The notes beneath the pieces are model-generated. The model saw only the letters and a program-made list of their open reading frames with translations. It did no database searches and had not been told where the DNA came from. From Pseudoscleropodium purum (lineage: Eukaryota; Streptophyta; Bryopsida; Hypnales; Brachytheciaceae): a stretch of DNA of 64,000 bases. Numbering within the stretch: the first letter of the stretch is position 1; the number at the start of each line of letters is the position of its first letter. The position numbers and the translations under genes are program-made. This document shows positions 20,845 through 43,277 of the stretch, in pieces. The stretch lies in assembly GCA_963969395.1 (NCBI GenBank), contig OZ017797.1, positions 8,866,001-8,930,000 on the forward strand, in the 5' to 3' direction.

Positions 20845-21891
20845 TGAAGGCCCTTTTGAGCATCTTTCAAGGGGATCACTATATAAGTGGTTTACACCTA
20901 ACAAACACCTCAAGAAATAATACTTTTGTCATGTTCAATGATAGTCAATTTACACCATCTACTCTACATGATGGTGTCTTTTCTTCAAGGCCTAATTAGG
21001 TTAAGATAATTTGTGATTTGCTAATTGGTATGAGAAATTTAGGACAAGCTTTGAATATGAATGTAATACAAACCATCATCAAGGGATTTGTTAATCATGC
21101 ATCTAAATTTTTAGGAAAGTTCAAAATCTCAATGATTTGGACACAAAAATTTATTAAAGAGCTATAGATGTGCAACTTCAGCATGTAACAAACTTCCTCT
21201 AGATTGGAAGACCCTCGATAAATTTATGGCATTCATAGTTGCCTATTTGGTGAAGATGTATGACATTCCTCCATCTTTAGTGATCAATACTAAGAAAACA
21301 TGTATTGCATTATTTCCTTATTCCTTTCATCTTTAGAAATTTTTTGATTTGACTATCAAAACTATGTTTCCATATAATTGATATAGCTTCCAGTGTTTAA
21401 TGAGGTTATATTTTATCTATAAAAACTAAACATACTTCTCAGTTCTATCAAAATTGGGAGTTTGTTCTCACATACGGCTTAAATATTTTTTTAGTTAAAG
21501 AATAATCATGATATTAGTTAATGTGCTTGCAATAAATCATGTTTGTAATAAGTCCTCGCTTGCAATAAGCAAGATGTTCTGACAATAATCACATTCAAAA
21601 TCAAAATATGGTAGGCCTCCTTAATCTTGTTGTATATATTAAATATCTCCACATCATATGTATGCCATTGAAATGTATAGAAATGAACTCCATTTCAATC
21701 CTTCAACTTTACAAAGTGATTATTAAGACTTAATATTATAAAATGTGAATACTATAATTTCAATATTATTATTATAGGTATAAAGTTTAAAGCTTTGAAT
21801 GATCTATTGCAAATATACATTTAGTGCCAATGGCTAGAGAACATACATGGGAGAAAATTGAAGTTCAAAGGGCATCAAAGTCATTGGAATG
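20845..21891 (+). pseudogene. pogo/CENP-B-like (DDE_1) transposase remnant, 5' part
   Basis: Conserved blocks in order: PFEHLSRGSLYKWFTP (~20845), QALNMNVIQTIIKGFV and FKISMIWTQKFIKE (helix-turn-helix part, ~21045-21160), CNKLPLDWKTLDKFMAFIVA and YDIPPSLVINTKKT (start of the DDE_1 domain, ~21195-21300), then after a ~500-bp AT-rich gap AREHTWEKIEVQRASKSLEW, which runs to 21891. The frame is interrupted there by the giant hAT element and continues at 43278. Stops and frameshifts show it was dead or dying before or after that insertion. Confidence 0.7.
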
Positions 21892-22382
21892 CAGGGTAGA
21901 CGAATCTCTACATCTGCCCCAAAATAGCATCCGTAACCCGGACGTCCGGATGTCCGGATGCACGGACGCCAGCAAACGCAGCGTCCCTCCCGCTGTCGGA
22001 AGGCGGATGAGCGGGGCGGATGGACGGGGCGGCTTAGAAAACCCATTTTGGGTTTTTTGTTTTGATTGTTTTCACCAATGAGAGATTGAGAGTGAAGTCA
22101 TTTTGATTTTGATTTTTCTTATATTGCAATTGCGATTCAATAGAGTTGTATATCATTATTTATGTAAAAGCTAAAATATGAAATATATTTTTAATTTTTT
22201 TGTTGAATTTCATTTTGATTTAGAAACAAAATCACTTTAAAATCCAGCGAGATGTATATCATCAATAAACAAACAATTTTATAATAAAATGATTGAAGAA
22301 ATCATTGTCATTTGTTTACATGAGCTCCATATATCATGAGCAACTAAACAATCAAACATCTAAATTCACATCTCCACAATTC

Positions 22383-23479
22383 CTATGCACGCCAATCCAC
22401 ATCTCCTTTACCCTCAGCCCCACTACTTTCTCCTATAGCTCTCTGTTCAAAATCTTCATTATCGGAGTCATCTTCATTGTTGGAATCAAGTATTGTTGTC
22501 TCGTTCAAGTCTTCTCTCAAAGTAGGTTTACTCCCTTCTTTCGAATTTAATTTTTCCTTTTTTCCTTTGACAGAATGATTAAAGGCTTTTTGAATAGGAA
22601 CCTTTCTTTTCTTTCTATTTGACAAAGTAACAACATTTTCATTAAGAGGGGTCCTATTCTTCATTGGAGAGATAATAAAAGGTTGCATTTATCTTTTCGC
22701 TTTCACCTTACTCGATTCTTGAACCATCAATCTCGATGTAGGGTCGACATGTCCATGAACGGTTATCTCCACTTTGGCTTTCTTTTGAAGTAATAGAGTG
22801 CCGTTTGTTGATTTGGTGGGTTCTTGCACCATTCCTTTTCCTAAAATGCGAGCACACAAAGATGCCAATGGCATCCGATCACTATCCGTATCACTTAGGC
22901 TTGTAGGTGATGACGCTACTTTCCGTAGATTACCGCCTGTAGAAATTTCTTTGGAAATGTTCATTAGGCGTTTTCCATATCCAAAGCTCTGAGAATCATT
23001 CAATCGTGTGCTAACAGACTTCAACAATATTGGTGGAAGAGCACTAGATCTCGGTACTTCAAAAATAGACTTCATTGGCTCCTTTCCTTTATCACTCTTC
23101 ATAATTGCCGAATTTGTGACTACCATCCCAACTGAATCACTATTTTTCTGTACCCCAATATTTGGTTCCCCCTCATCACCACTATTGCTGCCCGCACCTT
23201 TTGGAATGTCCACCTCCATGACCGCATCTTCTCTTTTGTCATTTCCTTGCACTACATTTAATGCCACAAATGGAGATTGAGAAATTAGAACTTTTTCATT
23301 TCTCCCATCATCACCAATAGCATTCTCATTGATTTTCACCTCTTTGGCAATAGCATTTGCCTTTTCCGATAGAATATTTTCGCTATTCAAGAATTCCATT
23401 CCATTGCAATATGTAGTTAAAAAAGGTAGATTCTCTTGTACTTCTACATTGTCCTCGTCTTCATAAAAGGTATATGCAT
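22383..23479 (-). pseudogene. Truncated low-complexity nuclear-type ORF near left end
   Basis: Minus-strand frame running from the junction at 23479 to a TAA at 22689-22691, then in the same frame from ATG 22688 to stop at 22383. The protein is acidic and Ser-rich with basic NLS-like clusters (SNRKKRKVPIQK, KGKKEKLNSK) and EDDSDNEDFEQ near its end. The 5' part is removed exactly at the terminus of the nested hAT element. Its position (stop about 490 bp from the element end, read toward that end) mirrors the RING-type ORF set in the nested element (stop about 465 bp from its end), so it fills the same slot although the sequences do not visibly match. Function unknown. Confidence 0.5.
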
Positions 23480-24118
23480 CAGGGTTGATACGACGTCCGG
23501 ACGCGGACGCTGTGTCCGCAGAGTCCGTTGACATTCGCGGTCCCCGCGGACGCAGCGTCCGCCGGGACCGCCCCGTCTGCCTATCACCCTGTCCGCCCCG
23601 TCCGCTTTGACGGCCCTATTTCCCCTAACCGCCCTACCCAAACTGCCCCGCGGTCACTCCTTTAATCTATAAACAATTAAATGTTAAATAAAGTGCAATG
23701 GTTCGCGATTTGTCATTAAAACAATGTCTCTTATAAGTTGAAAGATTATAAAGTTTGACCACCAGTCCATGATAGTCTTGAAACTATGAAAAAATTCCAA
23801 TTCATTTTCAAAAGGCAAACTAAAAAAATTTGTAACTTCAAATATATATATATATACTATTTAAAAAATCAAGATCAACACAAATACAAATATAATCAAT
23901 ATGGGCAAAATGTATTGAATTTAATATAGAATACCATACGTTGTGCACATTTGGCTAATTGCACATACAATTTTTTTCAATCCAACTCTATATTTCTAAA
24001 TTAATTTTTAATGCCTATATAACCTATTCAACTACTACTTCTGCACTACCAATCTAATATAAATGGCGAAAATGTTCATCTGGCATCGGCCAACGATATG
24101 TATTAGAAAATCGCGTAA

Positions 24119-25549
24119 TCACATGGGCCAAACTAATATATTTTCATCGTCAGTCTTCGAAGAAATGCACTTCAAGTAAGCATAAAACACTTTTGCAAAG
24201 TCATGAAAGGAAAATTGTGTCGCACTAGGTGTTTTAAGTAGCAAGTTGAAATACGCCTCTGACATGTTGTTTCCATTCATCTGCCGAGCAATTTTTCGAA
24301 TGGCATACTCTTCCGACTTACGTGAATACATTGGAATGACTTCCACATCTGCACCTGCTTTATGCAAATATGCAATACGTGGATCCACCCACCATCTCCT
24401 CTGCAAAGTTTGGTTCATCTCATCTATTGATGTGAATGTGTACAAAGACTTCATTGGCTGAGAAGCTAAGGTGGTCATGCCCCAATCACAAACTCCAATG
24501 TATACACGTGACTCATCCTCTGGAAAATGCAACAAGATGTTGTTCGGAGAAAGATCATTGTGCAAATGTCCAGCAAGATGCACTGCATACATTATATGTA
24601 TAAAGGCCCATATAAGCTCTGTGCGCTTCTTCTGATATCGCCCTAAACAGTGAGCTTTTACAACCTCCTCTTCGGTTGAATTCATATACATCAAACGGAT
24701 TTGAATGTTGTCTGAATAGTCCTTATCCATATTCAACATTTGTCGAATAGTTCCACCATTCCACCAATACGCATAACCTTCACACGTCGTTCTGTGCACC
24801 GCAGCAAACTGTATCACACCCGCGTGTGGAATTCGAACAGCCATTGATTCGTTTTGATGTTCTAATTTTGCAAGATCGGATCGAGTTTGGTGGTGAATGG
24901 ATTTCTTTGCCGCAAACTCCCAATAAGGAAGTATTCCTGGACATCCTTCAATACGAACCTTTCGAATAGTTGCATATCCACCTCTCATCGTTCTATGATC
25001 AACAGGAATCACGCGTGTTGTATCTGGAAGTGCTATGAGGTGTCGTTTGGTCCTTTCCGCTTCAGCAACTCCATCATTGCTTTTCCACCAAGCAATCGAA
25101 CCAACTCGATTGTGCCTTTTGGCGAATGAAGCACATCGCCCCCTAAATAAGTCCGCTTTCAGAATCACTTCTTTAAATTGGGCGTCATTAGGTCGATATT
25201 CCTTGCCATATTTAACCAAAATGACTTTGGAATTCCACAAAGCGTCATGAATCTTGTTCTCCAAACATTTGGTGAAGTGCGCTTTATCCATTTCGTCATG
25301 CCACTTCGCCACATTCAATGCATCCAACAACATCTGTGTCATTTCTACTTTGGATTTAGACACGCACTTCTCTTGATATCTGATGTACTTATTGTCTAAA
25401 GACAATGTTGTTTCCGATTCATAAAATTGAACGATGCGCTCGATCATGAATTTCTTGCATTCCTCCGAAGGACTTTGGCGAGCTACTTCAAAGTTTGATG
25501 GTCCCTCTCCATGTTTTAGCTTCGCAACCTTCTTCTTTCCGTTCGGCAT
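24119..25549 (-). CDS. Protein-kinase-like cargo protein, 476 aa, intact
   Basis: ATG at 25549, single open frame. The N-terminal ~190 residues are charged and helical without a known domain. From ~190 the kinase core begins: RGGYATIRKVRI (glycine-loop-like), EFAAKKS (candidate ATP-binding Lys), a helix with E in AKLEHQNES, then catalytic HNDLSPNNILLHF with the catalytic Asp at residue 332 and a metal-binding Asn, and CDWGMTTL, where DWG stands in place of DFG. The key residues are present, so it may be active, though the lobes are divergent and lack an obvious APE motif. A near-identical copy lies at 39730-41095. It is transcribed toward the right-type hAT end, 640 bp away, with a CpG-rich array upstream. 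Transposon-captured or element-specific kinase; substrate unknown. Confidence 0.8.
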   Translation of the reverse strand: MPNGKKKVAKLKHGEGPSNFEVARQSPSEECKKFMIERIVQFYESETTLSLDNKYIRYQEKCVSKSKVEMTQMLLDALNVAKWHDEMDKAHFTKCLENKIHDALWNSKVILVKYGKEYRPNDAQFKEVILKADLFRGRCASFAKRHNRVGSIAWWKSNDGVAEAERTKRHLIALPDTTRVIPVDHRTMRGGYATIRKVRIEGCPGILPYWEFAAKKSIHHQTRSDLAKLEHQNESMAVRIPHAGVIQFAAVHRTTCEGYAYWWNGGTIRQMLNMDKDYSDNIQIRLMYMNSTEEEVVKAHCLGRYQKKRTELIWAFIHIMYAVHLAGHLHNDLSPNNILLHFPEDESRVYIGVCDWGMTTLASQPMKSLYTFTSIDEMNQTLQRRWWVDPRIAYLHKAGADVEVIPMYSRKSEEYAIRKIARQMNGNNMSEAYFNLLLKTPSATQFSFHDFAKVFYAYLKCISSKTDDENILVWPM

Positions 25550-25744
25550 CGTGACAAATGAAATTGATATAGATCAAATTTTTTAATTTGAAATTGAATC
25601 CACGCGCAAGTGTCCAAAAAATTGGCAACAAGGGGGCCCCAATAAACTACTCTTGCCTTGTCTCAGAAAGGAGCCAATGGAAGATGAACCACCAAGCTCT
25701 CCGCTCCACCTTGCATTCACAAGGGGCAAAGCAAAAGTGACAAT

Positions 25745-26282
25745 GCGGACGGCCCCAAACCGTCCACCTGATTGGATGGGCCGGGGGTGGTGGACGCATC
25801 GGCTGTCCGCCTCCCCGAAACCCTCGAGCCCCGTCTGCCCAATCGGACGGCCATGGGCGGACAAATCTGCCGTCCGCCCGATCTGACGGGCAGCGGCGGA
25901 CGGTCCGTCCGCCCCATCGGACGGCCCCAAGCCGTCCGCCCGATCGGACGGGCCGCAGGTGGTGGACGCATCGGCTGTCCGCCTCCCCGAAACCCTTGAG
26001 CCCCGTTTGCCCAATCGGACGGCCATGGGCGGACAAATCTGCCGTCCGCCCGATCCGACGGGCAATGGCGGACGGCCACGGGCAGACAAATCTAGCGTCC
26101 GCCCGATCCGACGGGCAGCGGCGGACGATCCGTCCGCCCCATCGGACGGCCCCAAGCCATCCACCCGATCGGACGGGCCGCGGGTGGCGGACACATCGGC
26201 CGTCCGCCTCCCCGAAACCCTCGAGCCCCGTCCGCCCTATCGGACGGGCACAGGCGGACAAATCAAGCGTCCGCCTGATCCG
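25745..26282. promoter_or_regulatory. CpG-rich tandem array upstream of the kinase gene
   Basis: About three units of ~172 bp (starts near 25745, 25917 and 26140, the last spacing enlarged by a partial ~50-bp duplication), each with CGGACGGCCCCAA, ACGCATCGGC, CCCTCGAGCCCCGT and CCGTCCGCCCGATC. Dense GTCCG/CGGAC pentamers in an AT-rich setting. It ends about 196 bp upstream of the kinase ATG, where a promoter would lie. Candidate promoter and/or transposase-binding array; open frames through it are composition artefacts. Confidence 0.6.
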
Positions 26283-26817
26283 ATTTATTTTTCACATTTG
26301 AAAATAGAATCTAAAGAAGAACCACTAATTGTCTAATTTGGGCATTTCTTCATACAAATAAGAAATCATTTTAGTTTTTAGCAATCGTTGAGTGAAAAAT
26401 AAAAAAATTTCAAATATTCAAATAATTCAATCTTTCATAAATTAATTAGAAATACATTGTTACCATTTACGAGTTTCTAAATGTAATAAACACACAACAA
26501 TAATTTCAAAATACACACCATGCTAGTACATATTTAACCTCGAATGCTAAATTCAGAAATAGACATAATATGGCTCTTACAAAATTACATTTCTTCTTCA
26601 TATTTTTATTATTTATCAAAGTCGCTTATAGCTGTATACATCAACGCTATTATAAAATAATACAATGATGTCTTCAACAATATGCTTGCCTACATACATA
26701 CTTGGTGTACACTATTACACAACACTTTTTGAAAAAGTGAACAAAATTGTTGTTCAAAATTGTTCTATTCATTTAAAATTTTGTACTACTTCTACCAATC
26801 TAGTGCTCTATACTTGT
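26283..26817. other. No supported gene
   Basis: AT-rich segment between the GC array and the 3.3-kb element. The continuation of the gene broken at 30088 is not found here. Confidence 0.5.
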
Positions 26818-29800
26818 TGTCGCAGCACAGGGTAGGTCAATTCTCCATTATACTCACAAAAATCGCTCTAGAGTATAACTAAGTGACTCTAAAGATTGAA
26901 TCCACGAGATCCTGTGAAGTATCTAGCTCTATTAAGCAGTTAAGCTCAGTCAATATCCCAATCTTACTTTCCGGTCCTAGATCTAGAACCAGAAATACCA
27001 CCACACCGGATAACTACAGACCGGATTACTCCTTCTTCCGGTCCTACTTACTATCCGGTCTGTACAAACATCCAAATCCCATGATCTTACAACTTCCGGT
27101 CCTAGAAATCCGTCCTGACCAATCCGGTCGGGATGGTCATCATGTATCCGTAATCCTATCCGGTTTAGTTTTGCCTTTGTTTCACCATCAGAGGGGTCGC
27201 CGCTTACATTTGAGAGTGGTAGGCCCACCACTCCTTCTGTGACTTATAGTGGCTGAAGACCCACTATCCTACTTCCTAAACTCTTAAACTAATCCGGATC
27301 CAGTTTGGTCCTTCACAACAACCCAGATAGCAATCTGGGTTGTAGGTCACACAAAGACCCTACACTCGACCCTCTCGTACTACAACGACCTTGATGCTAC
27401 TTTCGATCCGTGTGAAGACAGGTGGTTACAAGTGCACCCGTCCGTTCCAACATCAACTAAAGTTCTTCCGTTACCCATACGGATGGTGAGACCTCACAGG
27501 AGATCGGACACTCGACCGGATTTCCCACCCGGGAGTTCTAGCGCAGCTAAGGAATCCCTCCCTACCCGCCTAGCCTAACAACGGCTTTCTCACCCGGAAT
27601 CTCAAACTCTAGACGTGCTGAGGAACTAAGTTCACTCCCAACTCTTCGATACCTACTCACATGCACCTAGGATCGGAAAAGAAACACCAAGGGGAGAAAT
27701 CACTCGCAAACCTGCTCGTACTATCCTACCTCCACATCATACAATCCTGTCGCGCTGGAGAGAGACACACAATGAAGAGAATAGAAAGGTACAAGAAGTT
27801 TGCAAAATGAAAAAACTCCCAGTTCCCATCGCAGGAACCGATTATATACAAAGGGTAAAAACCCTAAAAGCACAAAAAGGAGCAGAAAATCCGTGGGGGT
27901 TCGCCGCCACCCTAATCTAACTTCCGGTCTAACCTAATACTGTTGAGTCGGATCCGGATCCGGATCCGCTCCTACTCCTAACTGAAATCAAAATCCTATC
28001 TACTCTACAACCCTAGATCCTATTGTCGGGCTTCCTCTCTCCGGAACCAGCTCCTCGAAGACTTCACTCAAATTTCGGACCCGTTCCCCCTCCGCAGGAT
28101 TAGATCCGGGTGAAGACTCCAGGTCGATTGTAACGTCCGGTCTCCTGCCCGGAGTCTCAGCCCGTGTAGACTTCTTGGACTCGGGAGTCCAATCCTTCCT
28201 ATCCTTCTGAATGGTCGCGTCCGGAAAGATATCCGGTAGCGAGATGTCCGAAAGATGTATGCCCTTGGAGCACGTCGCTCCAGTCAACTTCCGGCTGCTT
28301 TCCTCAATCCGGTCCGCAGCTTTCCGCCCCTCCACCATCGCCGTCTCCACTTGCTCAGCGAAGTCGGTGAGAATCCGAACCATCCGGGAACCGGATAGTT
28401 TCTTCTCCTCGTGCATCTTCTCGTCGAAGAGCTTCGCTTTGGTGGCAGCCGTTCCGGTATCTCCCAGGATGGCCTTGATCTGCTCGGCTATCTTCCGAGT
28501 CTCCTCCGCCATCTCCCGGGTGGCCGTCACATCTTCCCGATAGGCAAAGAGAGTTGCCTTCAGGGTGTCCACCTCCTCCTGCAACCGGCGGATCTCCGCT
28601 TCCTGTTTCCGGGTCTCTTCCGGATTGGTGATGCACTCCGCCACCTGTTCCGCCAACTTACTGTCCGGTGGTGCATCTACCAACTTTCCGATCGCCGAAA
28701 GCATCCTGTGCTTGACCTCCCAATCCGCCCTGATGTTGTAGAGGAGGTTGATAAGACCGTTGAACGGATCTTGCATTTTCGGGTCTTCCCCGGAAACGGT
28801 CTTCTCGACTTCCGGTCTCTCTTCCTGGGCCGGCTTGTCGTAACCGGGAGGCGTCCCGCGCTTGTGGGGAGGCGTCAACTTCTGTCGCTTGATGGGCGGC
28901 ATCGGCTCCTCCTCTTCCTCGCTTGACTCTCGGTCTGAACCGGAATCGGATTTGGCCTCGTCATCCGTTTCCGACTCCCCATACTTCAGGAGGACTTCTT
29001 GAGTCCTCCATACCTTCTCCTCCGCATCGGTGAGGACTTGGTGTTCCCGATAGAGGTGGAAGAGGTAAGGGCACATTGGACTGGCCCTCTTCTTCCCAAC
29101 TCTACTAACGAGCTGGGTCACGAGATCGGAAATGATCCGTGCCCAGTCCACTTTTCGGGTACCACTGAGGGCACCGAAAATGGTGTTGCCGAGGGTGATC
29201 GTCACCCTGGTCGGCTTTTCCGGGTGAAGGACCGGAACCAAGAACTGCAGAAGCCGACGGTGTCGGTCATCCACGCAATCCTCAACCGCGTATCCGTCCT
29301 TCGGGTTGACGGCCCCCTGGAACTTGCCTCGGACAAACTCATCCTTCCGGTTTGCCATTCCTAACCCTCCTACCCGGAAACCGTAAACACCTCTCCACAT
29401 TCCCTCGTTCCAGCGGATGGGAGTTCCTCTCACGGTGTTGTCAAACTGGTTGGACAGTTTTCCGAGGAACTCCTTGACCATTCTCTCCTCCCTAAAACCC
29501 CAAGGTTTCTCGGCAAACCCTAGGCAACCCATAGAGGTGAGATCCTCCATGAGTTGAGACTTTTCCGGCTCTGTGGAGGAAATAACCGGAATGACTTTCC
29601 GGAGCTTCACCTCGCCTCCAGAGGGACTCGCTGGTCTAGACCTACATAGCGGCGGCATTCCCACTCCAATCTATCTCACTCTCTCCTAGCCGCACGTCCC
29701 GTTCCTCACGTTCTCTCTCTCCGATCTCAACCGGAATCAAAGCCTACAGCACACAAACGCGAAAACTCGACCACGCGCGCTCAAGCTTGAGTTTCTAAAA

Positions 29801-30087
29801 GCGGGTGCAACAGTGAAGGCTCCTCCTTATATAGTCTCTGGACCATTTCCGGTTTGGTCGTCTTGAATCCGGTTCACCCATAATCCGGTCCAAGACCTAA
29901 TCCGTGTGGCATTCCGTTTCCGTCGATAGTTACTCTTGGCCGGATTAGATCCAAGAGGCCCACTACTTCATGTTCTGAGCTAATTTTGAGTTTTCCTTCT
30001 CCACCTAATCGGATCCGGTTCCCTAATGGCTAGTTTCCGTTCCTATTTTGGTGCATACTAAGAAAATCAAAATTTTAAGCTGCGACA
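26818..30087 (-). mobile_element. 3.3-kb gene-bearing element, copy 3, inverted, no TSD
   Basis: Complete element (3270 bp) with both TGTCGCAGC termini, in reverse orientation inside the nested hAT element. Flanks are CTTGT on the left and TTGAG on the right, so the 5-bp duplication seen at the other two copies is missing. With a truncated gene on the right and unrelated AT-rich DNA on the left, this suggests a deletion or inter-element recombination after insertion. Confidence 0.85.
28000..29658 (-). CDS. 552-aa element protein, copy 3, intact
   Basis: Full-length open frame from ATG at 29658. Colinear with the copy 2 protein, with scattered substitutions (for example VWRTQEVLL for AWKTQEVLL, IFPDATIQKDRKDW for LFPDATMAKDRKDW) and no indels visible at domain scale. 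The domain order (transposon-type N-terminal domain, acidic/basic linker, coiled coil) is unchanged. That the frame stays open while the non-coding parts of the copies also differ supports a functional protein in the recent past. Confidence 0.85.
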   Translation of the reverse strand: MPPLCRSRPASPSGGEVKLRKVIPVISSTEPEKSQLMEDLTSMGCLGFAEKPWGFREERMVKEFLGKLSNQFDNTVRGTPIRWNEGMWRGVYGFRVGGLGMANRKDEFVRGKFQGAVNPKDGYAVEDCVDDRHRRLLQFLVPVLHPEKPTRVTITLGNTIFGALSGTRKVDWARIISDLVTQLVSRVGKKRASPMCPYLFHLYREHQVLTDAEEKVWRTQEVLLKYGESETDDEAKSDSGSDRESSEEEEEPMPPIKRQKLTPPHKRGTPPGYDKPAQEERPEVEKTVSGEDPKMQDPFNGLINLLYNIRADWEVKHRMLSAIGKLVDAPPDSKLAEQVAECITNPEETRKQEAEIRRLQEEVDTLKATLFAYREDVTATREMAEETRKIAEQIKAILGDTGTAATKAKLFDEKMHEEKKLSGSRMVRILTDFAEQVETAMVEGRKAADRIEESSRKLTGATCSKGIHLSDISLPDIFPDATIQKDRKDWTPESKKSTRAETPGRRPDVTIDLESSPGSNPAEGERVRNLSEVFEELVPERGSPTIGSRVVE

Positions 30088-30226: not shown

Positions 30227-30426
30227 GATGAAGCCGAAGCAAAGAGAATGAAACAATTAGAAAGCTTAAGAACCAAAATTTTGATTTAATTAATTAAAAT
30301 TTTACAAGAGTGAACTTTGTGAAAATTTGTAACAATGCCACAACAATTGTTCACTCAAAGCGGAAGGGGCAAGCAGAGCTTCCAATGCACTGGTCCGCCC
30401 ACTCCAAAAGAGAACGATTGTTCGGA

Positions 30427-30705: not shown

Positions 30706-30719
30706 CTTAAACCCTAAAC

Positions 30720-33110: not shown

Positions 33111-33113
33111 AGT

Positions 33114-33488: not shown

Positions 33489-34565
33489 ATGAACGATGAA
33501 GGTGATCGAAATATGGATGGGGTGACTCCGGGAAGCGAAGCCAAGAAAAAAAGCAAAGTGAAGGGGGCTACGCATGACCTTCGGCTTGACATTTTAAATG
33601 ACCCTACAATTAAAACAGAAAGCAAGTGGGAAGATGAAGATGCGGAGTATTGGACATCAAAAATGTGCAGGACCTATGTTAAAATGTTCCACATTGACAA
33701 GTTGTGGCCTCAGGAGTCGCACAAGAGTCATACACGGGATTTTTGTTGTAAACCATGGACTTGCAACAACAAACATTTTGTCCATCGATTTGAGGAGGTG
33801 TGGCGTGTTCTATTCGGAAACAAGCGCAGAAGTAAAGGCTATATTAATTATAGCATGGCGTGTATGGTTTACGCCGAACTTATATTAGAGCGCAAGATTG
33901 ATTGGAGCACGTTTCCGATGACAACAGCTTGCCCACTTCTACTTGAAGCCAATCAAAAGGACATTCCCGACTTGTACAATTTAGAGGGAGAAACAGAAAA
34001 AGTATTAAAAAATACTATTGAGGTGAAAACGGATGGTGTGGAGAAAGCCTCAAATGTTGAAGAATTACGGTCTGTACAATCTCCAATAAAAGCAATCAAT
34101 GAAAGCTCTTCGAAAAATGTGGGGAAAAATGTGGAGAAAGATGTAGAGGCGCAGGAGGGTGAAGTCTTTTCCACAACTCCAACGCGTTTGACCTTTACAC
34201 CAAATGTTGCGGCACAAACGCAAACGGAGTTTGTAAACAAAGGCAAGGTTTGCACGGAACGCGGGAAAACTTCAAAAAGTAAAGTAGACGAAGTCTTGGC
34301 GGAGAAAGTGGCAAAGGCTAATGCTACAATTGATAGTCTGATAGCCAACAATTGTTTTGATAGTTTGGTCTACAAATCTCCACTTGTGCATCAAGGCGTT
34401 GAATCTAGTTCAGCATTAAGTTTAGAAGACAAAGTACATACGCCTCGTGGACAAGGCGTGACGATTGATAATATATCCTCATTATGGAGTTCCGAGCGTA
34501 AAAGGCGGGTGGAGGAGTTTCCGTTTACACCGGCATTGCTAAGTCCTCTACATCGAACCTTGTAA
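33489..34565 (+). CDS. Cargo ORF 1 (plant transposon-like domain), 358 aa
   Basis: ATG at 33489. Residues ~45-145 (KWEDEDAEYWTSKMCRTYVK, FVHRFEEVWRVLFGNKRRSK, ILERKIDWSTF) have a layout similar to the N-terminal domain of the 3.3-kb element protein, including a RK[IV]DW motif. The rest is Ser/Thr/Lys-rich and probably disordered, with AAQTQTEF near residue 242. It ends in TAA, then GAC, then the ATG of ORF 2 in the same frame, so ORFs 1 and 2 look like one protein split by a stop. Function unknown. Likely the N-terminal third of a ~1130-aa protein. Confidence 0.5.
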   Translation: MNDEGDRNMDGVTPGSEAKKKSKVKGATHDLRLDILNDPTIKTESKWEDEDAEYWTSKMCRTYVKMFHIDKLWPQESHKSHTRDFCCKPWTCNNKHFVHRFEEVWRVLFGNKRRSKGYINYSMACMVYAELILERKIDWSTFPMTTACPLLLEANQKDIPDLYNLEGETEKVLKNTIEVKTDGVEKASNVEELRSVQSPIKAINESSSKNVGKNVEKDVEAQEGEVFSTTPTRLTFTPNVAAQTQTEFVNKGKVCTERGKTSKSKVDEVLAEKVAKANATIDSLIANNCFDSLVYKSPLVHQGVESSSALSLEDKVHTPRGQGVTIDNISSLWSSERKRRVEEFPFTPALLSPLHRTL

Positions 34566-34568
34566 GAC

Positions 34569-35669
34569 ATGTCCAATTCAAAACAATTGGAAAATCTTTT
34601 GAAGCTCTTGGTTCAGTTTGCTAACCTTCATGAAGAAATAGGCGGATCGTCTAACCCCAATGATGGTACTACTGCTGTTCTAATGAGTCCACTTGCAGAT
34701 CCAAAGAATGATGCACATATACTTGATACAGCTTTCAAGATGATGATGTCAGCTGAATTTTTAGCGAAAGTTGCTCTGACTTTTATGAATTTGGCCAAGG
34801 AGTTTTCTTTCATGGCACCAGAGATGTTGAAAGGTGCTATAGCATTTCAGAATCTCAAGAAGACTTTCAGACCACTTTTCGAAAAAAGAGATGTTCACAT
34901 ACTACAATTGGTAGAATATGAGAAGAAAATTGCTGACCTTGAAGGAGTAGAAGCAAGGTGCAAAGTGTTGGAGTTGAAATTAAAGACTTCGGAGAGTGAG
35001 GTTGAACATTTAAATCAACAATCATCGAGGCAAATGGAGGAGTTGATGAAGATGCATAAACGGATTGTAGAATTGCAAGGGACCTCCAAAAATTCAAGTG
35101 AGGTTGCAATCTCACTTGTGATTGTACTCGGAGATAGTCAAGAGACTCAAGAGAGTGAAGATAAGCTCTCTCTTCCTTTTGATAAGGCCGAAGCAAGCGA
35201 CAACCCTGCCATTGTGAATGTACAAGAAAGTCACGATATGAGCATGTTAAAAGCGACACAACAACCATCAATGGAAAAGCTTTTATCCGTTTACGTGAAT
35301 GCGGAGACGCAAACGGAGAGTTGTGACTTTGAAGAGTTGAAGCATAAATTAGAGGAGGCAATTGAAGCAAAAGGAATAGTTGAATCCGAGTTGAATCGAT
35401 TGCAATTGTGCTTGGATTTGAAGAAGTTTATGCCATCTAGCAGCTTGAAGTCTCGATGGTTAGTATGGATACAAAGACTCCAAGACAGACCCTCTATAGT
35501 ATCTCGAGCAATGGCAGGTCTTCAAACATTGGCAATGGAGTCGAATGAAAATTGCGATGCCATTCAAAACTCTTTGAGTTGGTTCAAGACTATGTTTGAC
35601 CAACATCCTTCAAAGGGATATACGGAGATCACATGTTGGAGAGACAGGATGCCATGTTTGAGCGGTTAA
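34569..35669 (+). CDS. Cargo ORF 2 (coiled coil), 366 aa
   Basis: Starts three bases after the ORF 1 stop, same frame. Helical and charged throughout, with coiled-coil stretches (LVEYEKKIADLEGVEARCKV, LKLKTSESEVEHLNQQ, EELKHKLEEAIEAKG) and NAETQTES, echoing the TQTE motif of ORF 1. The frame fails at about 35630, where a one-base shift continues into ORF 3 without loss of sense (upstream frame ...HPSKGYTEI, downstream MLERQDAMFERLNH). Probably the middle of a single ancestral ORF. Confidence 0.5.
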   Translation: MSNSKQLENLLKLLVQFANLHEEIGGSSNPNDGTTAVLMSPLADPKNDAHILDTAFKMMMSAEFLAKVALTFMNLAKEFSFMAPEMLKGAIAFQNLKKTFRPLFEKRDVHILQLVEYEKKIADLEGVEARCKVLELKLKTSESEVEHLNQQSSRQMEELMKMHKRIVELQGTSKNSSEVAISLVIVLGDSQETQESEDKLSLPFDKAEASDNPAIVNVQESHDMSMLKATQQPSMEKLLSVYVNAETQTESCDFEELKHKLEEAIEAKGIVESELNRLQLCLDLKKFMPSSSLKSRWLVWIQRLQDRPSIVSRAMAGLQTLAMESNENCDAIQNSLSWFKTMFDQHPSKGYTEITCWRDRMPCLSG

Positions 35670-36886
35670 ACCACACAAAGAAGGACCAAGCTCCACCCAT
35701 CAATTGGGCCTTGGAAGTAGAGGAAGGATGGATCCCTTACAATACACTTTCAGCACACATCAATGTGAAAGACAAGCGAGTGGTGCATGCTTGTGATCCA
35801 GCCTCTCCAATCTTGGATGGTTGTTGTAGCCTTTGCCAAGGCCTCTTCGGACCGGAAGGTGCGGTAACCATGGGCCAATGTCGCCACACTTTCCATGTCA
35901 CTTGCATTGTGAAAGCATCACTCATTCGTTCGGTGTGTGCCGAGTGTCGTAGTCCATTGAGTGCTAGGTTCTACGAAATGTTTGGTATCTTGGAAGCTAT
36001 GCCTCCAGGCCACAAGTACAATCATTGGAATCTTCCTCTTAATCAAGCGCCGTACAAATTCCAAAATTATCAACATTGGGGGAAGCCAATCCAATGGAAT
36101 GCAAATGAACAGAGGCATGATTTGTACGAGGAATCTCAGCAACCATTGGATTTGGATGTATGGATGATTCACAATAGAGAGGTGGAATTGAAGGCTCGAG
36201 GAATCGTAGATGACGCGGCCCGTGAAATGTTTTGTCGCAACATGGGGGGACATTGGAGCTTGCAACACGAAAAGTTCTTTTGTTTTCCAGATAAAAAAGT
36301 GGAGAGAGGACCAGAAGATAGTTGGGTGGAGGTGAACCATGGAAAAGAGTTCGATGAGCAGTATAAGGCATACGACCACACCCTCGTAGGTAGGGCCCTT
36401 CTATTGTCGAAGTTGGAAGAGGCTGCAAAAGTTCGTGCTGTCTACGATACAAATGGACTAACAAGTACAGGACATTCATCTGTAGATGTGGCAGCAGCAT
36501 TTGATAGGCGCATTGGCGATATTATAGGGCATTGGAAGGCTTTCCTATTGGATGGAGACTGCCTCACAGTATGGCAAGGGAAAGGAGATGATGAAGTTGT
36601 TCAAGTGATGGTAGATCGTGTGGAGAGCAACTTGAGAACCTTGAAGGTAGACGAAGTCGATTTATCACCGAAAAGAAAACAAAAAAAGAAGCGTGAAGAG
36701 GACAATGACTTCTCTCCGGAAACCAAGAAACAATTTCATAAGGTGGACATTGAAGTTCAATTTGGAGGGCAAATAGTCCGTCCAAGTCAACAACGGTCAA
36801 TTCGTCAATCATCTGCTAAACTCCTCGGTATAGTAGATTTTCCTTTTGTTTTGGGAGAAGGTAGTGGTCCATCCGGTGGAAAGTAG
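35633..36886 (+). CDS. Cargo ORF 3 (RING-H2 finger), 417 aa
   Basis: Overlaps ORF 2 by 37 bp in a different frame. Residues ~62-107 carry CSLC...GQCRHTFHVTC...CAEC, which fits the RING-H2 pattern C-x2-C ... C-x-H-x2-H-x2-C ... C-x2-C, so it could be a ubiquitin ligase. Downstream is a Trp/His-rich region (HWNLPL, YQHWGKPIQW), then a charged C-terminus with KRKQKKKREE (NLS-like). It ends ~465 bp from the left-type terminus of the nested element and reads toward that terminus. Target unknown. Confidence 0.6.
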   Translation: MLERQDAMFERLNHTKKDQAPPINWALEVEEGWIPYNTLSAHINVKDKRVVHACDPASPILDGCCSLCQGLFGPEGAVTMGQCRHTFHVTCIVKASLIRSVCAECRSPLSARFYEMFGILEAMPPGHKYNHWNLPLNQAPYKFQNYQHWGKPIQWNANEQRHDLYEESQQPLDLDVWMIHNREVELKARGIVDDAAREMFCRNMGGHWSLQHEKFFCFPDKKVERGPEDSWVEVNHGKEFDEQYKAYDHTLVGRALLLSKLEEAAKVRAVYDTNGLTSTGHSSVDVAAAFDRRIGDIIGHWKAFLLDGDCLTVWQGKGDDEVVQVMVDRVESNLRTLKVDEVDLSPKRKQKKKREEDNDFSPETKKQFHKVDIEVQFGGQIVRPSQQRSIRQSSAKLLGIVDFPFVLGEGSGPSGGK

Positions 36887-37182
36887 GATTTGAAGAGAAT
36901 TTTGTTTTTTAAAAACAATGGTCCTTTCATTGTTTAAAAACAAAAAAAAATGTGAAAGATTTAGATCTTAAAAAGATCATATAGGATTCAATAGTGATAT
37001 TGGAACTATGTTTTCATGTATTTTGTTTATACATATATATTTATATATAAAGATGCTATATTTTCATTTGCGTATAAAAATATTTTTATATGTACATCTT
37101 ATTTTACGTGGATGCATTCATTTTTGATTGTGTAACATTCAAATTACATAACAATATAAAATTTTCTAATGACTAATGGCAA

Positions 37183-37350
37183 TGCGAAGTCCGCCCCGTC
37201 CGCCCTGTCCGTCTACCCCGGCCGTCCGCCCCGCCCCGCGCATCCGCCTTCCGACGGCGGGAGGGACGCTGCGTCCGCTAGTGTCCGTGCGTCCGGACAT
37301 CCGGAAAACGGACACTATTTTGGGACGGACGTTGAGATTCGTCAACCCTA
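37183..37350 (-). mobile_element. Left-type hAT end (inverted)
   Basis: Matches the left end of the outer element (21892-22035) in reverse: the shared blocks TCCGCCTTCCGACGGCGGGA, GGGACGCTGCGTCCGCT and GAGATTCGTCAACCCT. The last base is A rather than G. It directly abuts a Ty3/gypsy integrase frame at 37351. Confidence 0.8.
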
Positions 37351-37359
37351 CTAAAGGCC

Positions 37360-38655
37360 TACGTCGGCTCCGAGTGCTCCAATCCCGACACGATTTTCCA
37401 TCGGTGGGACATTTTGGTTATAACAAGACCATGGAGCTTGTATCTCGGGATTTCTGGTGGCCCCAAATGTGAAAGGCCGTTAAAGAATACGTCACGATAT
37501 GTGACACTTGTTCAAGGTTCAAGATTCCTCGTCATCGACCATATGGACTACTTCAACCATTGCCAATTCCTGAGAAGCCATGGACATCCATATCCATGGA
37601 CTTCATAGTGGATCTTCCGCCGTCCAAGACCTTTGATTCTATTTTTGTTGTTGTCGACCGGCTCACCAAGATGGCGCACTTTATTTCGTGTCATAAGACA
37701 GTTACCGGCGAAGAAACGGCAAAACTCTTTATAGACAATGTCTACAGAATCCATGGCTTATCTGCTGATATTATCTCTGATCGTGGGACGCAATTCACAT
37801 CCAAATTTTGGCAATCCTTGTTCAAAATCCTAGGGGTGGAGATCAAATTGTCTTCAGCATACCATCCTCAGACCGACGGACAAACCGAGCGTGTCAACCA
37901 AGTGTTGAAGTAGTACTTGCGCTATACCATCAATTACCATCAAGATAATTGGGCGAACTTGTTGCCACTGGCGGAGTTTGCATACAACAATACATTGCAA
38001 GGGTCTACCCGACAGACGCCTTTCTTTGCAAATTACGGCCATCATCCAAAGTTTGATCAATTCAATCTCAACATCTCAGAGAATCCAGCTGCTACAGACC
38101 TTGCTACCCGACTATCTGATATCCAGAAGCAGATGAAGGAAAAACTTCTTGAAGCCCAGGAGCATGAGAAAACCAATGCAGATAAGTCTCGCAAGCAACA
38201 TCCTTTGATTTCTATTGGAGGTAAGGTTTGGCTGCTCCGTCAAAATTTAAAGACTCGACGGCCATCTGACAAACTTGACTACAGACTACCGCCGCCTAGG
38301 GCCGTTTTCAGTCGCCAAACAAATCAACAAGGTGGCTTATCGATTGGAGCTACCTCCTTCTATAAAGATTCATCCCGTATTTCACGTCTCTCTCCTCGAG
38401 CCCTACAAAGAATCAACAATGCTAGGAAGGATTCAAGAATCTCCGCCTCCAATTGAAATCGAAGGTGAAGAGGAATTTGAAGTTTCAGAGATTCTTGACT
38501 CCCGCATCCATCGACGACGACTTGAATATCTTATGCATTGGCAAGGCTACAAAGTCAGCGAAAGAACATGGGAGCCTAACTCTAATCTCGACAACGCCCC
38601 TGAAATGATTCAAGAATTTCATCGGCAGTATCCGCAAAAACCAAGGAGCATTTGA
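37360..38655 (+). pseudogene. Ty3/gypsy integrase and chromodomain, broken
   Basis: Starts mid-protein with the HHCC zinc region (HDF..VGHFGYNKT...FWWPQM, then CDTC), followed by the integrase core (WTSISMDFIVDLP, VVVDRLTKMAHF, ISDRGTQF, SSAYHPQTDGQTER with the DDE residues), GPFSVAKQI / HPVFHVSLLEPY, and a C-terminal chromodomain (EFEVSEILDSRI, YLMHWQGYKVSERTWEP). Disabled by TGA at 37470-37472 (a Trp codon is expected), TAG at 37911-37913 (Gln expected) and a frameshift near 38270. The chromodomain identifies a chromovirus. Not translatable as one protein. Confidence 0.9.
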
Positions 38656-39086
38656 GTTTAATGCGTCTGGACCAACACCAACACCAAGTTCTGCAAGATT
38701 TTTCTTGGTGCTAGTGCAGATGCAGAGACTTTGAACTAAAACGGTGGTGGTATCGACGAGGTAATAATATACTAGCTCAGTTTTGAGAGGACAGGCCTTC
38801 GAACTCATATCGGCCAAAAAAGTCAATAACATCGTAATCACCACCTTGCCGATATCTCATGTTGTCATTCACACGGCCTTATACTTCAGTTTAGCAGCGC
38901 TACTATTTCTTACCGCCGTCGGACTCGCCGCCATTCGTCACCTTTTTGCAGCCAACATTTCGTCTAACGGTATTCTTTACACCGAACATTCTTTTCTTTT
39001 GTCGCAGTCACGTGAAGTCCCACGTAAACATTCTTTTTTCTATTCATGCTATTGGCCTATAGGTGAACTCGTAGAACTCGTTCCTT

Positions 39087-39099
39087 GAAGGGGGGGTGA
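39087..39099 (+). other. Polypurine tract
   Basis: GAAGGGGGGGTGA directly before the LTR start TGTCACGG, the position of the plus-strand primer in LTR retrotransposons. Confidence 0.8.
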
Positions 39100-39727
39100 T
39101 GTCACGGACGTGCTATACCGGGCCTTATCCAGTAGTTTCGTCCCTAATAGAGTCTCCACCGCCTTTGCAACAAGGATGCTTCTTAAGAACCTTCTCAAAA
39201 GCGGTGGCCTAGTGTACAAGTTGTTTCCAATGACTCTAGTAGATTCCAATAGTCTTCATTAGTTTCTATTTGTTTCCGGAAGCTTCCATAAGCTTCCGGA
39301 AGGTTCTACTTAGTTCTATTAGTTTTCGGAAGCTTCCATAAGCTTCCGGAAGGTTCCATTTGGTTCCACTAGCTTCCGGAAGCTTCTATAAGCTTCTAGA
39401 AGGTTCCACTAGATCCTTCTAGTTTCCACAAGCTTCCGGAAAGACCTACGGATAATTCCAAAGGTTTCCAAGGCCTTATTCCGGAAGGTTCCTTACTCTA
39501 GTATAAATAGAGAGTCGAGGGCCATTGTCCCTCACTCTCTTCAACACCAGTTGTACTCAGTCATTCTTTGACTTCATGTTATCAATACATCTTCTAGTTT
39601 TCTCATCTTGAAGCATGTTCTGAGTCATGTGTGAGGAATCCCTTCACTTCTAGCTTGTTCTTGTCTCTGTTTGAGGTATCCCCTCAAATCTGATCTTGGT
39701 TCCGTCCAATAGTTGCCGTCCACAACA
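39100..39727 (+). repeat. 3' LTR of the chromovirus (628 bp)
   Basis: Starts TGTCACGGAC right after the polypurine tract and ends CCACAACA where homology to the intact kinase copy begins. U3 has a repeat array of TTCCGGAAGCTTCC-type sequence, then TATAAATA at 39502-39509. The right edge is placed by comparison with the kinase copy at 24119-25549, within about two bases. Confidence 0.8.
39274..39491 (+). promoter_or_regulatory. Array of heat-shock-element motifs in the LTR U3
   Basis: Six perfect three-unit motifs TTCnnGAAnnTTC start at 39274, 39294, 39344, 39374, 39394 and 39479; partial motifs lie near 39329 and 39434. The last lies 10 bp upstream of TATAAATA (39502-39509). TTCnnGAAnnTTC is the binding pattern of heat-shock transcription factors. 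The array arises from ~50-70-bp tandem units with AAGCTTCCGGAAGGTTC. Confidence 0.65.
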
Positions 39728-39729
39728 GC

Positions 39730-41095
39730 AGCTCGCCAAAGTCCTTCGGAAGAATGCAAAAAATTCATGATCGAGCGCATCGTTCAATTTTATGAATCGG
39801 AAACAACATTGTCTTTAGACAATAAGTACATCAGATATCAAGAGAAGTGCGTGTCTAAATCCAAAGTAGACATGACACAGATGTTGTTGGATGCATTGAA
39901 TGTGGCGAAGTGGCATGACGAAATGGATAAAGCGCACTTCACCAAATGTTTGGAGAACAAGATTCATGACGCTTTGTGGAATTCCAAAGTCATTTTGGTT
40001 AAATATGGCAAGGAATATCGACCTAATGACGCCCAATTTAAAGAAGTGATTCTGAAAGCGGACTTATTTAGGAGGCGATGTGCTTCATTCGCCAAAAGGC
40101 ACAATCGAGTTGGTTCGATTGCTTGGTGGAAAAGCAATGATGGAGTTGCTGAAGCGGAAAGGACCAAACGACACCTCATAGCACTTCCAGATACAACACG
40201 CGTGATTCCTGTTGATCATAGAACGATGAGAGGTGGATATGCAACTATTCGAAAGGTTCGTATTGAAGGATGTCCAGGAATACTTCCTTATTGGGAGTTT
40301 GCGGCAAAGAAATCCATTCACCACCAAACTCGATCCGATCTTGCAAAATTAGAACATCAAAACGAATCAATGGCTGTTCGAATTCCACACGCGGGTGTGA
40401 TACAGTTTGCTGCGGTGCACAGAACGACGTGTGAAGGTTATGCGTATTGGTGGAATGGTGGAACTATTCGACAAATGTTGAATATGGATAAGGACTATTC
40501 AGACAACATTCAAATCCGTTTGATGTATATGAATCCAACCGAAGAGGAGGTTGTAAAAGCTCACTGTTTAGGGCGATATCAGAAGAAGCGCACAGAGCTT
40601 ATATGGGCCTTTATACATATAATGTATGCAGTGCATCTTGCTGGACATTTGCACAATGATCTTTCTCCGAACAACATCTTGTTGCATTTTCCAGAGGATG
40701 AGTCACGTGTATACATTGGAGTTTGTGATTGGGGCATGACCACCTTAGCTTCTCAGCCAATGAAGTCTTTGTACACATTCACATCAGTAGATGAGATGAA
40801 CCAAACTTTGCAGAGGAGATGGTGGGTGGATCCACATATTGCATATTTGCATAAAGCAGGTACAGATGTGGAAGTCATTCCAATGTATTCACGTAAGTCG
40901 GAAGAGTATGCCATTCGAAAAATTGCTCGGCGGATGAATAGAAACAACATATCAGAGGCGTCTTTCAACTTGCTACTTAAAACACCTAGTGCGACACAAT
41001 TTTCCTTTCATGACTTTGCAAAAGTGTTTTATGCTTACTTGAAGTGCATTTCTTCGAAGACTGACGATGAAAATATATTAGTTTGGCCCATGTGA
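39730..41095 (+). pseudogene. Kinase-like cargo gene, 5' truncated copy
   Basis: From AGCTCGCC at 39730 to the stop at 41095 it is nearly identical to residues ~23-476 of the intact kinase protein, with a few substitutions (FRRRCASF for FRGRCASF, RRMNRNNISEASF for RQMNGNNMSEAYF). HNDLSPNNILLHF and CDWGMTTL are conserved. The first ~22 codons including the ATG are replaced by the gypsy LTR; the frame is open into the LTR but begins without an ATG, so a shortened product could only start at an internal Met or from an LTR-driven transcript. It lies next to the right end of the outer element. The high similarity implies a recent common source. Confidence 0.75.
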
Positions 41096-41923
41096 TTACG
41101 CGATTTTCTAATACATATCGTTGGCCGATGCCAGATGAACATTTTCGCCATTTATATTAGATTGGTAGTGCAGAAGTAGTAGTTGAATAGGTTATATAGG
41201 CATTAAAAATTAGTTTAGAAATATAGTGTTGGAATGAAAAAAGTGATATGTGCAATTAGCCAAATGTGCACACTATATGGTATATGTAAATTTTTGAGTT
41301 CACAATGTATGGTATTCTATATTAAATTCAATACATTTTGCCCATATTGATTATGTTTGTATTTGTGTTGATCTTGATTTTTTAAATAGTATATATATAT
41401 ATATATTTTTGAAGTCACAAACTTTTTTAGTTTGCCTTCTGAAAATAAACTGGAATTTTTTCATAGTTTCAAGACTATCATGGACTCATGGTCAAACTTT
41501 ATAATCTTTCAACTTATAAGAGACATTGTTTTAATTTTTTTTTCCTATGTGGTTGAATCCCTAGAGGACCAACATGTGTTTTGGGGCAATATATAATTTT
41601 TGGGCATACGTGTGACTGTAGATTTGCATATTTTGGGCTGAAATTTCTTAATAGAATGTGGGGAAGAGGAATATCTTCCATATGTACAAATTTCATGACA
41701 TTTGAAAATATGAGTCAAAAGTTATTGCATAGTATGTTGTTTGTTTCTCAACTCAGGCAGTCCGGGGTTCCGGGCAGATTTTAAAAAATCAATTTTTCAA
41801 GAAATAAAAATTTGAAATTGATTCTTGAAATTTATATGTATTCAAAAACTTTAGAATCATTGCATTTCAATAGTTGAGATAAAAGTTATAAAGCTTTTCA
41901 GTTTGCAGGCAGTCATAGAATCT

Positions 41924-42209
41924 CAAGGTTGACAGGACGGTCGGACGTCCGGACGCGGACGTTGTGTCCGCAGGGTCCGTTGACATTCGCATCCGCCTAT
42001 CCGCCCCGTCCGCCCGTCTGCCCGGTTACAGCCGTCCGATCGACACGCGGACTGATGTGGTCCGCACGATCTGGACATCAGCCTTGGGCCGCCCGCCCCA
42101 CCCCGCTTGTCCGCCTTCCGACGACAAGAGGGACGCTGCGTCTGCTGGCGTCTGGACGTCCGGGTTACGGACGCTTTTTTCGAGCGGACATAGAGATTCG
42201 TCAACCCTG
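41924..42209. mobile_element. hAT MITE, 286 bp, TSD TAGAATCT
   Basis: CAAGGTTGACAGGACGG ... TAGAGATTCGTCAACCCTG with identical TAGAATCT at 41916-41923 and 42210-42217. Same family and orientation as the MITE at 9490-9779, including the internal CGGACTGATGTGGTCCG hairpin. Confidence 0.92.
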
Positions 42210-42589
42210 TAGAATCTTTACACCAAAAAAAACTTTGAAGTCCATTATTTTACTGAAATTTCAATATTTTTGAAAAATAATAATAATACTGGATGTATAA
42301 TGTTTATAACAACAATTCACCATTTGGATTGAAACTTTTTAATTCTATAACTAATTTACTAACAATTTAGTATTTTGAATCATTCTCTATTTCTTTCTAC
42401 TTACTAATTTTTTCCTATATGTTGTAGAACTCCAAATGATTTGAAAATTTTCATATGTGTAGCAAGCTTGCCTTGAAGAATGTATCTAGAGAAGCACAAC
42501 CATTTTGGACATTTCTTCATAATGATCTAACCTTTTGAAGCGCAGTTGCCCATTTTTTCGCAGGGTCAAAAAAAGGATTTTTGTCACTT

Positions 42590-42830
42590 CAAAGTTTAAA
42601 TGCTAATATCTTGCAATCTACATGGTGGAAATTTCTGAAATTTTTTCCACATACTCTCAAATATATTAGTACAAGATCATACCGTCACATCTGTCAAAAA
42701 ATGATATTTTTCAAAATTTTGATACTTGTACAAAAAAATGGCAGTTTTGGAGCATTTTTAGAGAGAACAGAATCAAGGACCTTTAGGGTTAAAACTCACA
42801 GTTTTTAAACTTGAAATAATATGAAATTAA
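42590..42830 (+). repeat. Repeat shared with 30720-30963
   Basis: See the partner entry: related AT-rich sequence in opposite orientation. In this copy it ends near AACTCACAGTTTTTAAAC. Confidence 0.5.
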
Positions 42831-43048
42831 GTGTTCAATGAATGCATTTGAAAATATATTTATTTTAGGTTTTAGTTTCTTAGTAGCCTTTTGCATTACA
42901 AATTTAGAAGTTTAAATTTTTTGGATATAAGTATATAACATGTCTACTTTGAGTTAGTAGGGTTACATTTCCCAAAAAATTAATATAACTCATGAAAATG
43001 GTTTCTTTTCCCTTTAATTCTAAGGAAACATTTTTTTTAATTTTTTTT

Positions 43049-43269
43049 ATAACAAATCGCGAACCATTGCACTTCATTTAATATTTAATTGTTTAAGGAT
43101 TAAAGAAGTGACCGCGGGGCAGTTTAGGTAGGGCGGTCGGGGGAAACAGGGCCATCAAAGTGGACAGCGCGGACGGGGCGATCCCGGTGGACACTGTGTC
43201 CGCCGGGACCGCGAATGTCAACGGACGCTGTGGACACAGCGTCTGAGTCCGGACGTCCTGTCAACCCTG
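43049..43269. mobile_element. Right terminus of the giant hAT element
   Basis: Subterminal sequence from ACAAATCGCGAACC through GACCGCGGGGCAGTTTAGG and GTCCGCCGGGACCGC to the end GTCCTGTCAACCCTG; it is the reverse complement of the end at 23480-23700, with GTCCG/CGGAC pentamers concentrated in the last 150 bp. Confidence 0.85.
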
Positions 43270-43277
43270 TTGGAATG

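Follow-up and report, generated by a model that had tools for sequence, protein, structure and literature searches.

A 64-kb stretch of the Pseudoscleropodium purum genome (C41:8866001-8930000 in the 313-Mb genome searched; the whole stretch is hereafter called the window) contains a 21.4-kb span that is bounded by the ends of a hAT-type transposon and holds two copies of a kinase gene, a RING-type gene and part of a hAT transposase gene (Table 1). The outer ends, CAGGGTAGAC at 21892 and GTCAACCCTG at 43269, and the octamer TTGGAATG, identical at 8/8 positions on both sides, are exactly as described in the initial annotation, which took the span for a single transposon with kinase and RING genes as cargo. 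Our analysis replaces that view: the span is best described as a nest, in which one hAT element (A) has been opened by a second member of the same family (B). It is made up of A, with about 3.6 kb of its own DNA left, and B, to which are added a miniature inverted-repeat transposable element (MITE), an unnamed repeat and part of a gypsy element (the gypsy fragment). Self-comparison revealed two more ends within the span, in reverse orientation, of which the one at 23480 is of the right type and the one at 37350 of the left type, and B is read as a separate insertion because of these internal ends and because its target site is uninterrupted in relatives. That the size was reached partly by nesting had been anticipated correctly, as B, the gypsy fragment, a long terminal repeat (LTR)-like repeat, the unnamed repeat and the MITE all lie within A.

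Terminal ends and family size

At either end the family has the 10-bp terminal inverted repeat CAGGGTTGAC or a single-base variant of it, which fits the CAGGG-like start of hAT elements; the outer 10-mers of the 21892-43269 span deviate from this repeat at one base only, in the left 10-mer. Past the first 10 bp the ends diverge, so that left-type ends (CAGGGTTGACGAATCTC...) can be told from right-type ends (CAGGGTTGACAGGACG... or CAGGGTTGACACGACG...). In the window, CAGGGTAGAC with at most one mismatch occurs 10 times against 1.65 expected. The MITEs at 9490-9779 and 41924-42209 share both ends, as had been noticed, and have exact duplications. Across the genome the left-end 17-mer CAGGGTTGACGAATCTC occurs 1672 times (865 + 807), and its reversed control 0 times. 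Eight left-end loci were sampled; seven have a right end 243-384 bp away, which is MITE-sized, with duplications of 8/8 in five and 7/8 in two (L002, L003), and at the eighth (L001) a right end at MITE distance with a duplication was not found. Exact 8-bp duplications were recorded at four window elements, at L055, L054/L056 and two C1 elements, and at 5/8 of the sampled left-end loci. The target preference of hAT elements is nTnnnnAn; the 13 exact duplications have T at position 2 in nine cases and A at position 7 in four.

End-to-end relatives of the two elements

Elsewhere in the genome five elements of 9.5-11.9 kb were recovered from end to end, four of them with perfect duplications. Two of these are inverted neighbours on C1, the sequence of which was read at the ends only. 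Elements of the transposase type have the order left end, transposase gene (reading toward the left end), middle, kinase gene (reading toward the right end) and right end. In the RING type, for which L054 with the adjoining L056 is the one end-to-end example, the order is left end, RING gene, a further open reading frame (ORF), kinase gene and right end; the RING gene of this element consists of 706 and 368 codons with one stop between them, and none of its open frames resembles the transposase.

Outer element A is best read as the remnant of a transposase-type element, the relatives of which measure 9.5-9.8 kb end to end. The initial annotation had found no transposase in the span, but the last 371 codons of the 1155 in L055 remain at 22386-23479; the window ORF at 22689-23534 is the cut-off C-terminal third of the protein known from the relatives, and both Pfam domains fall outside the remnant. 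A homologue search with the window fragment gave no useful result. The assignment to the hAT superfamily stands, since the 1155-amino-acid (aa) frame of L055 contains DUF659 (PF04937, E = 8.1e-33) and Dimer_Tnp_hAT (PF05699, E = 1.2e-8) and relatives have exact 8-bp duplications; the zf-BED model was not reported for this frame at E 0.01, and a CxxC stretch is visible by eye. A KDZ transposase with matching ends had been suggested as a further search target; its domain (PF18758) gave 0 matches in the genome, and the control genomes were equally silent. The ratio of nonsynonymous to synonymous substitution rates (dN/dS, omega) of the L055 transposase against L039, L040 and L041 is 0.43-0.58.

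Inner element B measures 13.9 kb, of which 3.3 kb is the LTR-like repeat, and apart from this repeat it matches L054/L056 end to end in pieces of 88-94% identity. The repeat, at 26816-30087, occupies the place of about 1.2 kb that holds a 347-aa ORF in L054. The 16-base target site of B is uninterrupted in four transposase-type copies, being exact in L039, L041 and L055 and matching at 15/16 positions in L040. A chimeric origin of B, with the 3.3-kb repeat marking the junction of two element types, was rejected, as the RING-type L054 has both halves.

Table 1. Features of the 21.4-kb span, other family elements in the window (window positions) and relatives elsewhere in the genome
Feature	Position or length	Strand	Target duplication	Remarks
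Element with both ends	6246-8985		GTGACAAA, exact 8 bp	
Element with both ends	9490-9779		CCATCTAT, exact 8 bp	
Left 8-bp target duplication of A	21884..21891		TTGGAATG	
Left portion of A, of the transposase type	21892..23479	+		92.5% to L055 10-1617, 91.8% to L039 154-1773, 88.0% to L041
Left terminal region of A	21892-22019			
3' third of hAT transposase gene	22386..23479	-		Reads toward left end; TAA stop at 22689-22691
Target of B within the transposase gene of A	23472..23479		ATATGCAT	
Inner element B (RING type)	23480..37350	-		Runs from its right end (23480) to its left end (37350)
Kinase gene copy 1	24119..25549	-		Reads toward right end of B; final ~26 codons in other frame (24057-24134)
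GC-rich tandem array upstream of kinase	25672..26283			Similar arrays upstream of kinase copies elsewhere
3.3-kb LTR-like repeat	26816..30087	-		TGTCGCAGC...GCTGCGACA; 554-aa ORF
Middle region common to both element types	30719..33157			91.6-94.1% to L039, L040, L041, L054, L055
RING-type gene of B	33480..36886	+		Toward left end of B; stop at 34563-34565, frame break near 35645
Left terminal region of B	37220..37350	-		
Apparent 3' part of Ty3/gypsy retrotransposon	37351..39731	+		5' part missing; lies within kinase copy 2
Kinase gene copy 2, of outer element A	39713-41095	+		Gypsy insertion took N-terminus
Unnamed repeat inserted in A	41535..43040			~1.2 kb plus MITE
286-bp MITE, same family	41924..42209	-	TAGAATCT, exact 8 bp	Both ends present
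Right terminal region of A	43040..43269	+		
Right 8-bp target duplication of A	43270..43277		TTGGAATG	
L055	9641 bp		CTTTTATT, 8/8	Open 1155-aa transposase frame, broken kinase
L039	9756 bp		7/8	483-aa kinase frame, broken transposase
C1:2658498-2668065	9568 bp		GTTGAAGA, 8/8	hAT match and kinase match between ends, by coordinates
C1:2680608-2690152	9545 bp		GGCGGGAC, 8/8	hAT match and kinase match between ends, by coordinates
L054 with adjoining L056 (RING type)	11,873 bp		ATATGCAA, 8/8	Open 505-aa kinase, 347-aa ORF, RING gene
L040 (transposase type)				Without left end; open 505-aa kinase, broken transposase
L041 (transposase type)			CCTAATAT / AATAATAA, mismatch	Open 505-aa kinase, broken transposase

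The kinase and RING genes

The genome search gave 1520 first-look candidates for the kinase, 89 of which were scored, and 794 for the RING gene, 100 of which were scored; association counts use the best-scored candidates and are lower bounds. Association was tested among the 89 kinases, the 100 RING genes, taken at 1.5-14 kb from a kinase, and 150 hAT domains (other hAT families included), with shifted nulls. The RING gene lies upstream of and divergent from the kinase in 19 pairs, 16 of them at 9.1-9.7 kb (null mean 0.14, maximum 3), and other arrangements are few (upstream on the same strand 3, downstream 1). A hAT match is likewise upstream and divergent in 18 pairs at 5.6-8.7 kb (null mean 0.21, maximum 2), against one on the same strand and none downstream. 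The kinase and the RING gene are most readily understood as regular genes of a repeated family and not as captured cargo, because each of the five end-to-end elements from elsewhere in the genome has the kinase and one of them the RING gene, and both are repeated genome-wide.

The two window kinase copies adjoin the two right ends, differ at 12 of 1365 nt and share a frame break near the C-terminus; the other scored copies are 89-91% identical, and 37/89, the window pair included, have no internal stop. Downstream of the kinase the alignment extends to the family right end in 27/28 other loci, stopping about 108 bp short in L025. The kinase copy in L054 contains WEFAAK, HNDLSPDNIL and DWGM, which we take to be the beta3 Lys, HxD Asp/Asn and DxG kinase motifs. 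For the predicted kinase model (mean predicted local distance difference test score 78, predicted template-modelling score 0.57), all 50 Foldseek matches shown were protein kinases (probability 1.00, best E 3.2e-6). The closest named relative of the kinase (72%) is on a 2.9-kb contig of an assembly labelled as a Bacilli metagenome, which we take as contamination; the other named relatives are Ceratodon purpureus proteins of 49% and 42% identity, which point to a moss as the likely host.

Scored RING copies besides the window one are 91-95% identical and have frames of up to 1137 aa. The RING matches in Pfam (zf-RING_11, E = 8.4e-6; zf-RING_2, E = 1.5e-4) are each under the curated cut-off, and some relatives have RING domains precomputed in databases. 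The 347-aa ORF of L054 (3350-4390, - strand) has about 50 residues in common with the N-terminal region of the RING protein (window 33480-34562), at 39% identity (E 8e-10 in a single comparison).

Probable formation of the nest and possible role of the kinase

We consider it highly probable that two members of one repeated hAT family, A of the transposase type and B of the RING type, make up a nest here, and that the kinase is an integral gene of the family under selection. B would have inserted into the transposase gene of A at ATATGCAT when a gypsy element already lay within the kinase of A, and a later deletion from the left terminus of B to the gypsy element would have removed the middle of A, which is absent between these two points, together with one of the B duplications. 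We infer a transposase-linked deletion, of the reversed-ends kind described in maize (PMC9910405), because the break sits exactly at the terminus of B. The transposase type would supply a hAT transposase acting on the ends common to the family by cutting there, and this enzyme would move the RING-type elements and MITEs in trans. The kinase would be an accessory gene that may modify the transposase or counter host silencing, and the RING protein may act on host proteins; these last two roles are guesses.

Selection on the kinase is suggested by the way in which its copies have changed. Changes private to one copy were 61 silent to 147 replacing, whereas those shared by three or more copies were 31 to 29 (Fisher p 0.002, a rough value, since kinship among the copies makes them non-independent). 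Shared changes are thus less often replacing than private ones, so that the kinase seems to be of importance to the element, and the lineages that spread seem to have kept its sequence. Omega was 0.37 in the seven MTKG copies versus 0.40 in the other 15; the upstream DNA is of the transposase type in these seven and of the RING type in 11/15 of the others. A further-reaching possibility, which we hold only tentatively and regard as somewhat doubtful, is that transposition, or else escape from silencing, strictly requires the kinase as a second component, which would act mainly in cis, and that the RING type is a partner with an accessory function of its own. On that reading the RING type would not be a dead derivative, since transposase-less elements with a RING gene would still keep the kinase under selection.

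Several observations speak against parts of this interpretation. With respect to the nest, the flanks of B do not match (ATATGCAT at 23480 versus CTAAAGGC at 37350), and the deletion invoked for this is itself deduced; the idea that the mismatch arose by inversion between the kinase copies was rejected, as such an inversion, worked through on paper, restores no duplication. Among the relatives, the flanks of L041 do not match and L040 is without a left end, and not one of the elements read (L055, L039, L040 and L041 among them) has both genes open, the C1 pair not having been read through. The right-end 10-mer has more than two mismatches in kinase loci L026 and L029. With respect to the identity of the kinase, the Pfam Pkinase match (E 3.4e-5) is below the gathering score, the family profile matched no PDB chain by sequence, and the template-modelling scores of the Foldseek matches are low (0.27-0.34 by query length), with root-mean-square deviations of 10 Å or more. 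With respect to selection, the pooled omega of 0.37 (22/28 copies, six of other lengths left out) comes from copies ranked by protein score, which biases dN/dS downward, a bias to which the contrast of shared and private changes within the sample is less exposed. Omega is also the same in copies with stops (0.365) and without (0.372), and the two window kinases have diverged as neutral DNA would, 10/12 changes being replacing versus 79% expected.

The nest, wherever it formed, may later have moved at least once as a whole, as a 21.4-kb macrotransposon with its ends at 21892 and 43269. The perfect outer duplication and the outer 10-mers, differing from those of the family at one left base, would agree with this. 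Prior insertion of A, followed by its filling, would leave a perfect duplication just as well, and a second copy of the nest was not seen, though no search for the nest as a unit was made; we regard movement as a whole as unlikely.

It is very improbable that the kinase belongs to another transposon and is a passive hitch-hiker in hAT elements. The window right ends beside the kinases differ at 28 of 233 aligned positions, 10 of them CpG transitions, and the right ends and the kinases would have different histories because the divergence of the kinases is so much lower (12/1365). Gene conversion between inverted copies could produce such a mosaic, however, and in 27 of 28 loci the sequence that follows the kinase aligns as far as the same right end, the kinase is in the same place in both element types, and its shared changes are more constrained than the private ones.

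The reading of the span as one giant hAT element that captured a host kinase and RING cargo and moved as a 21.4-kb unit has the exact duplication at its outer ends in its favour, as well as reports of maize hAT macrotransposons of 28 kb (excised; PMC9910405) and about 100 kb (PMC3260210). It is hardly credible in the face of the internal ends and the uninterrupted target site in relatives, of the five 9.5-11.9 kb end-to-end elements that carry the kinase, four with perfect duplications and one with the RING gene, of the repetition of both genes (89 and 100 scored copies), and of the breaks that the window shows in each of these genes, the transposase, the RING gene and the two copies of the kinase. 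Least probable of all is an assembly artefact in which misassembled reads produced the inverted arms: near-identical inverted arms do occur elsewhere (L061, 99.97%), but those of the window are 0.9% apart in the kinase, 12% apart at the right ends and have different insertions, and the inverted C1 neighbours have their own, different perfect duplications.

To our knowledge, hAT elements are usually described as one-gene transposons, and for those of the DUF659 type the features of the Ac/Ds family serve as the comparison. The nested family resembles Ac/Ds-type plant elements with DUF659 (in part, PMC3260210) in its 8-bp duplications, short inverted ends, DUF659 and dimerization domains and shortened derivatives or MITEs; unlike them, it has a second gene, the kinase, on the opposite strand, a 1155-aa transposase frame and a length of 9.5-9.8 kb, and its RING type keeps the kinase without a transposase. 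An accessory gene beside the transposase is also described for hAT7 of rust fungi (PMC12730594), in which the gene is a TET/JBP dioxygenase and not a kinase, the duplications are 7 bp and the host is a fungus. The maize Ac/fAc composite insertions and macrotransposons (PMC9910405) are likewise large hAT-bounded structures with reversed internal ends and 8-bp duplications, in which deletions arise by reversed-ends transposition; unlike the present nest, which holds family members and other repeats, they have host DNA inside, such as the p1 enhancer. Among the matches listed from the open-access literature (titles and abstract openings), none reports a hAT element with a kinase. Large hAT units and hAT accessory genes are known; what is new is that the kinase is integral to a hAT family and that this family has a partner type with a RING gene and no transposase. 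If the kinase is integral and selected, the family would offer a natural system for investigating how cut-and-paste elements use signalling or ubiquitin-type proteins to regulate their movement or evade silencing. In addition, kinases in moss gene sets, such as the Ceratodon purpureus relatives, are worth checking as possible transposon genes.

Other repeats and inverted copies

The gypsy fragment was named by eye: it has what we take to be integrase-like frames (about 37355-38652) and an LTR (about 39099-39731), the end of which falls in the 5' portion of kinase copy 2, and Pfam gave no family for the single frame tested (37917-38453). The 3.3-kb repeat with the ends TGTCGCAGC...GCTGCGACA is present in the window at 2380-5657, 16864-20167 and 26816-30087. 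Its 554-aa ORF is found in two copies and is broken in the first, and 5-bp duplications (GCTAT and ACCTG, by eye) flank the copies at 2380 and 16864, unlike that at 26816-30087, which has no matching duplication; the repeat looks like a solo LTR carrying an ORF, or a small DNA element. Pieces of the unnamed repeat of 41535-43040 also lie just outside the right ends in L012, L016, L024 and L055, and the surroundings of the right end are perhaps a preferred landing place for it.

Neighbouring kinase, RING and hAT matches within 30 kb are more often inverted than direct (15 versus 3 distinct pairs, p 0.008; scored matches on C1, C40, C41, C42, C44, C45, C46, C48 and C49, other hAT families included), and neighbouring inverted or direct copies often score identically. 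Palindromes as mobile units with two right ends were considered and rejected: the two C1 elements inserted independently, each with a duplication of its own, and in L014/L020 the arms continue for 91 bp beyond the right ends, with flanks that are reverse complements of each other; this pair looks like an inverted duplication of the locus, flank included. Positions 1-10000 of L061 hold two inverted RING arms that are 99.97% identical over at least 3.4 kb, and the spacer between them is 94% identical to the 2.7-kb element at 6246-8985 in the window.

Frames of 1172 and 1174 aa with a Dimer_Tnp_hAT match, each with a divergent second frame (760 or 699 aa), were found in L052 and L053. These were considered as candidate long transposases and assigned to another hAT family, perhaps a second two-gene hAT family in the genome; CAGGGTTGAC ends were not found within the 10 kb. 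Finally, a fragment at 12786-13286 in the window resembles a Harbinger-type transposase (DDE_Tnp_4, Pfam E 0.011, under the cut-off).

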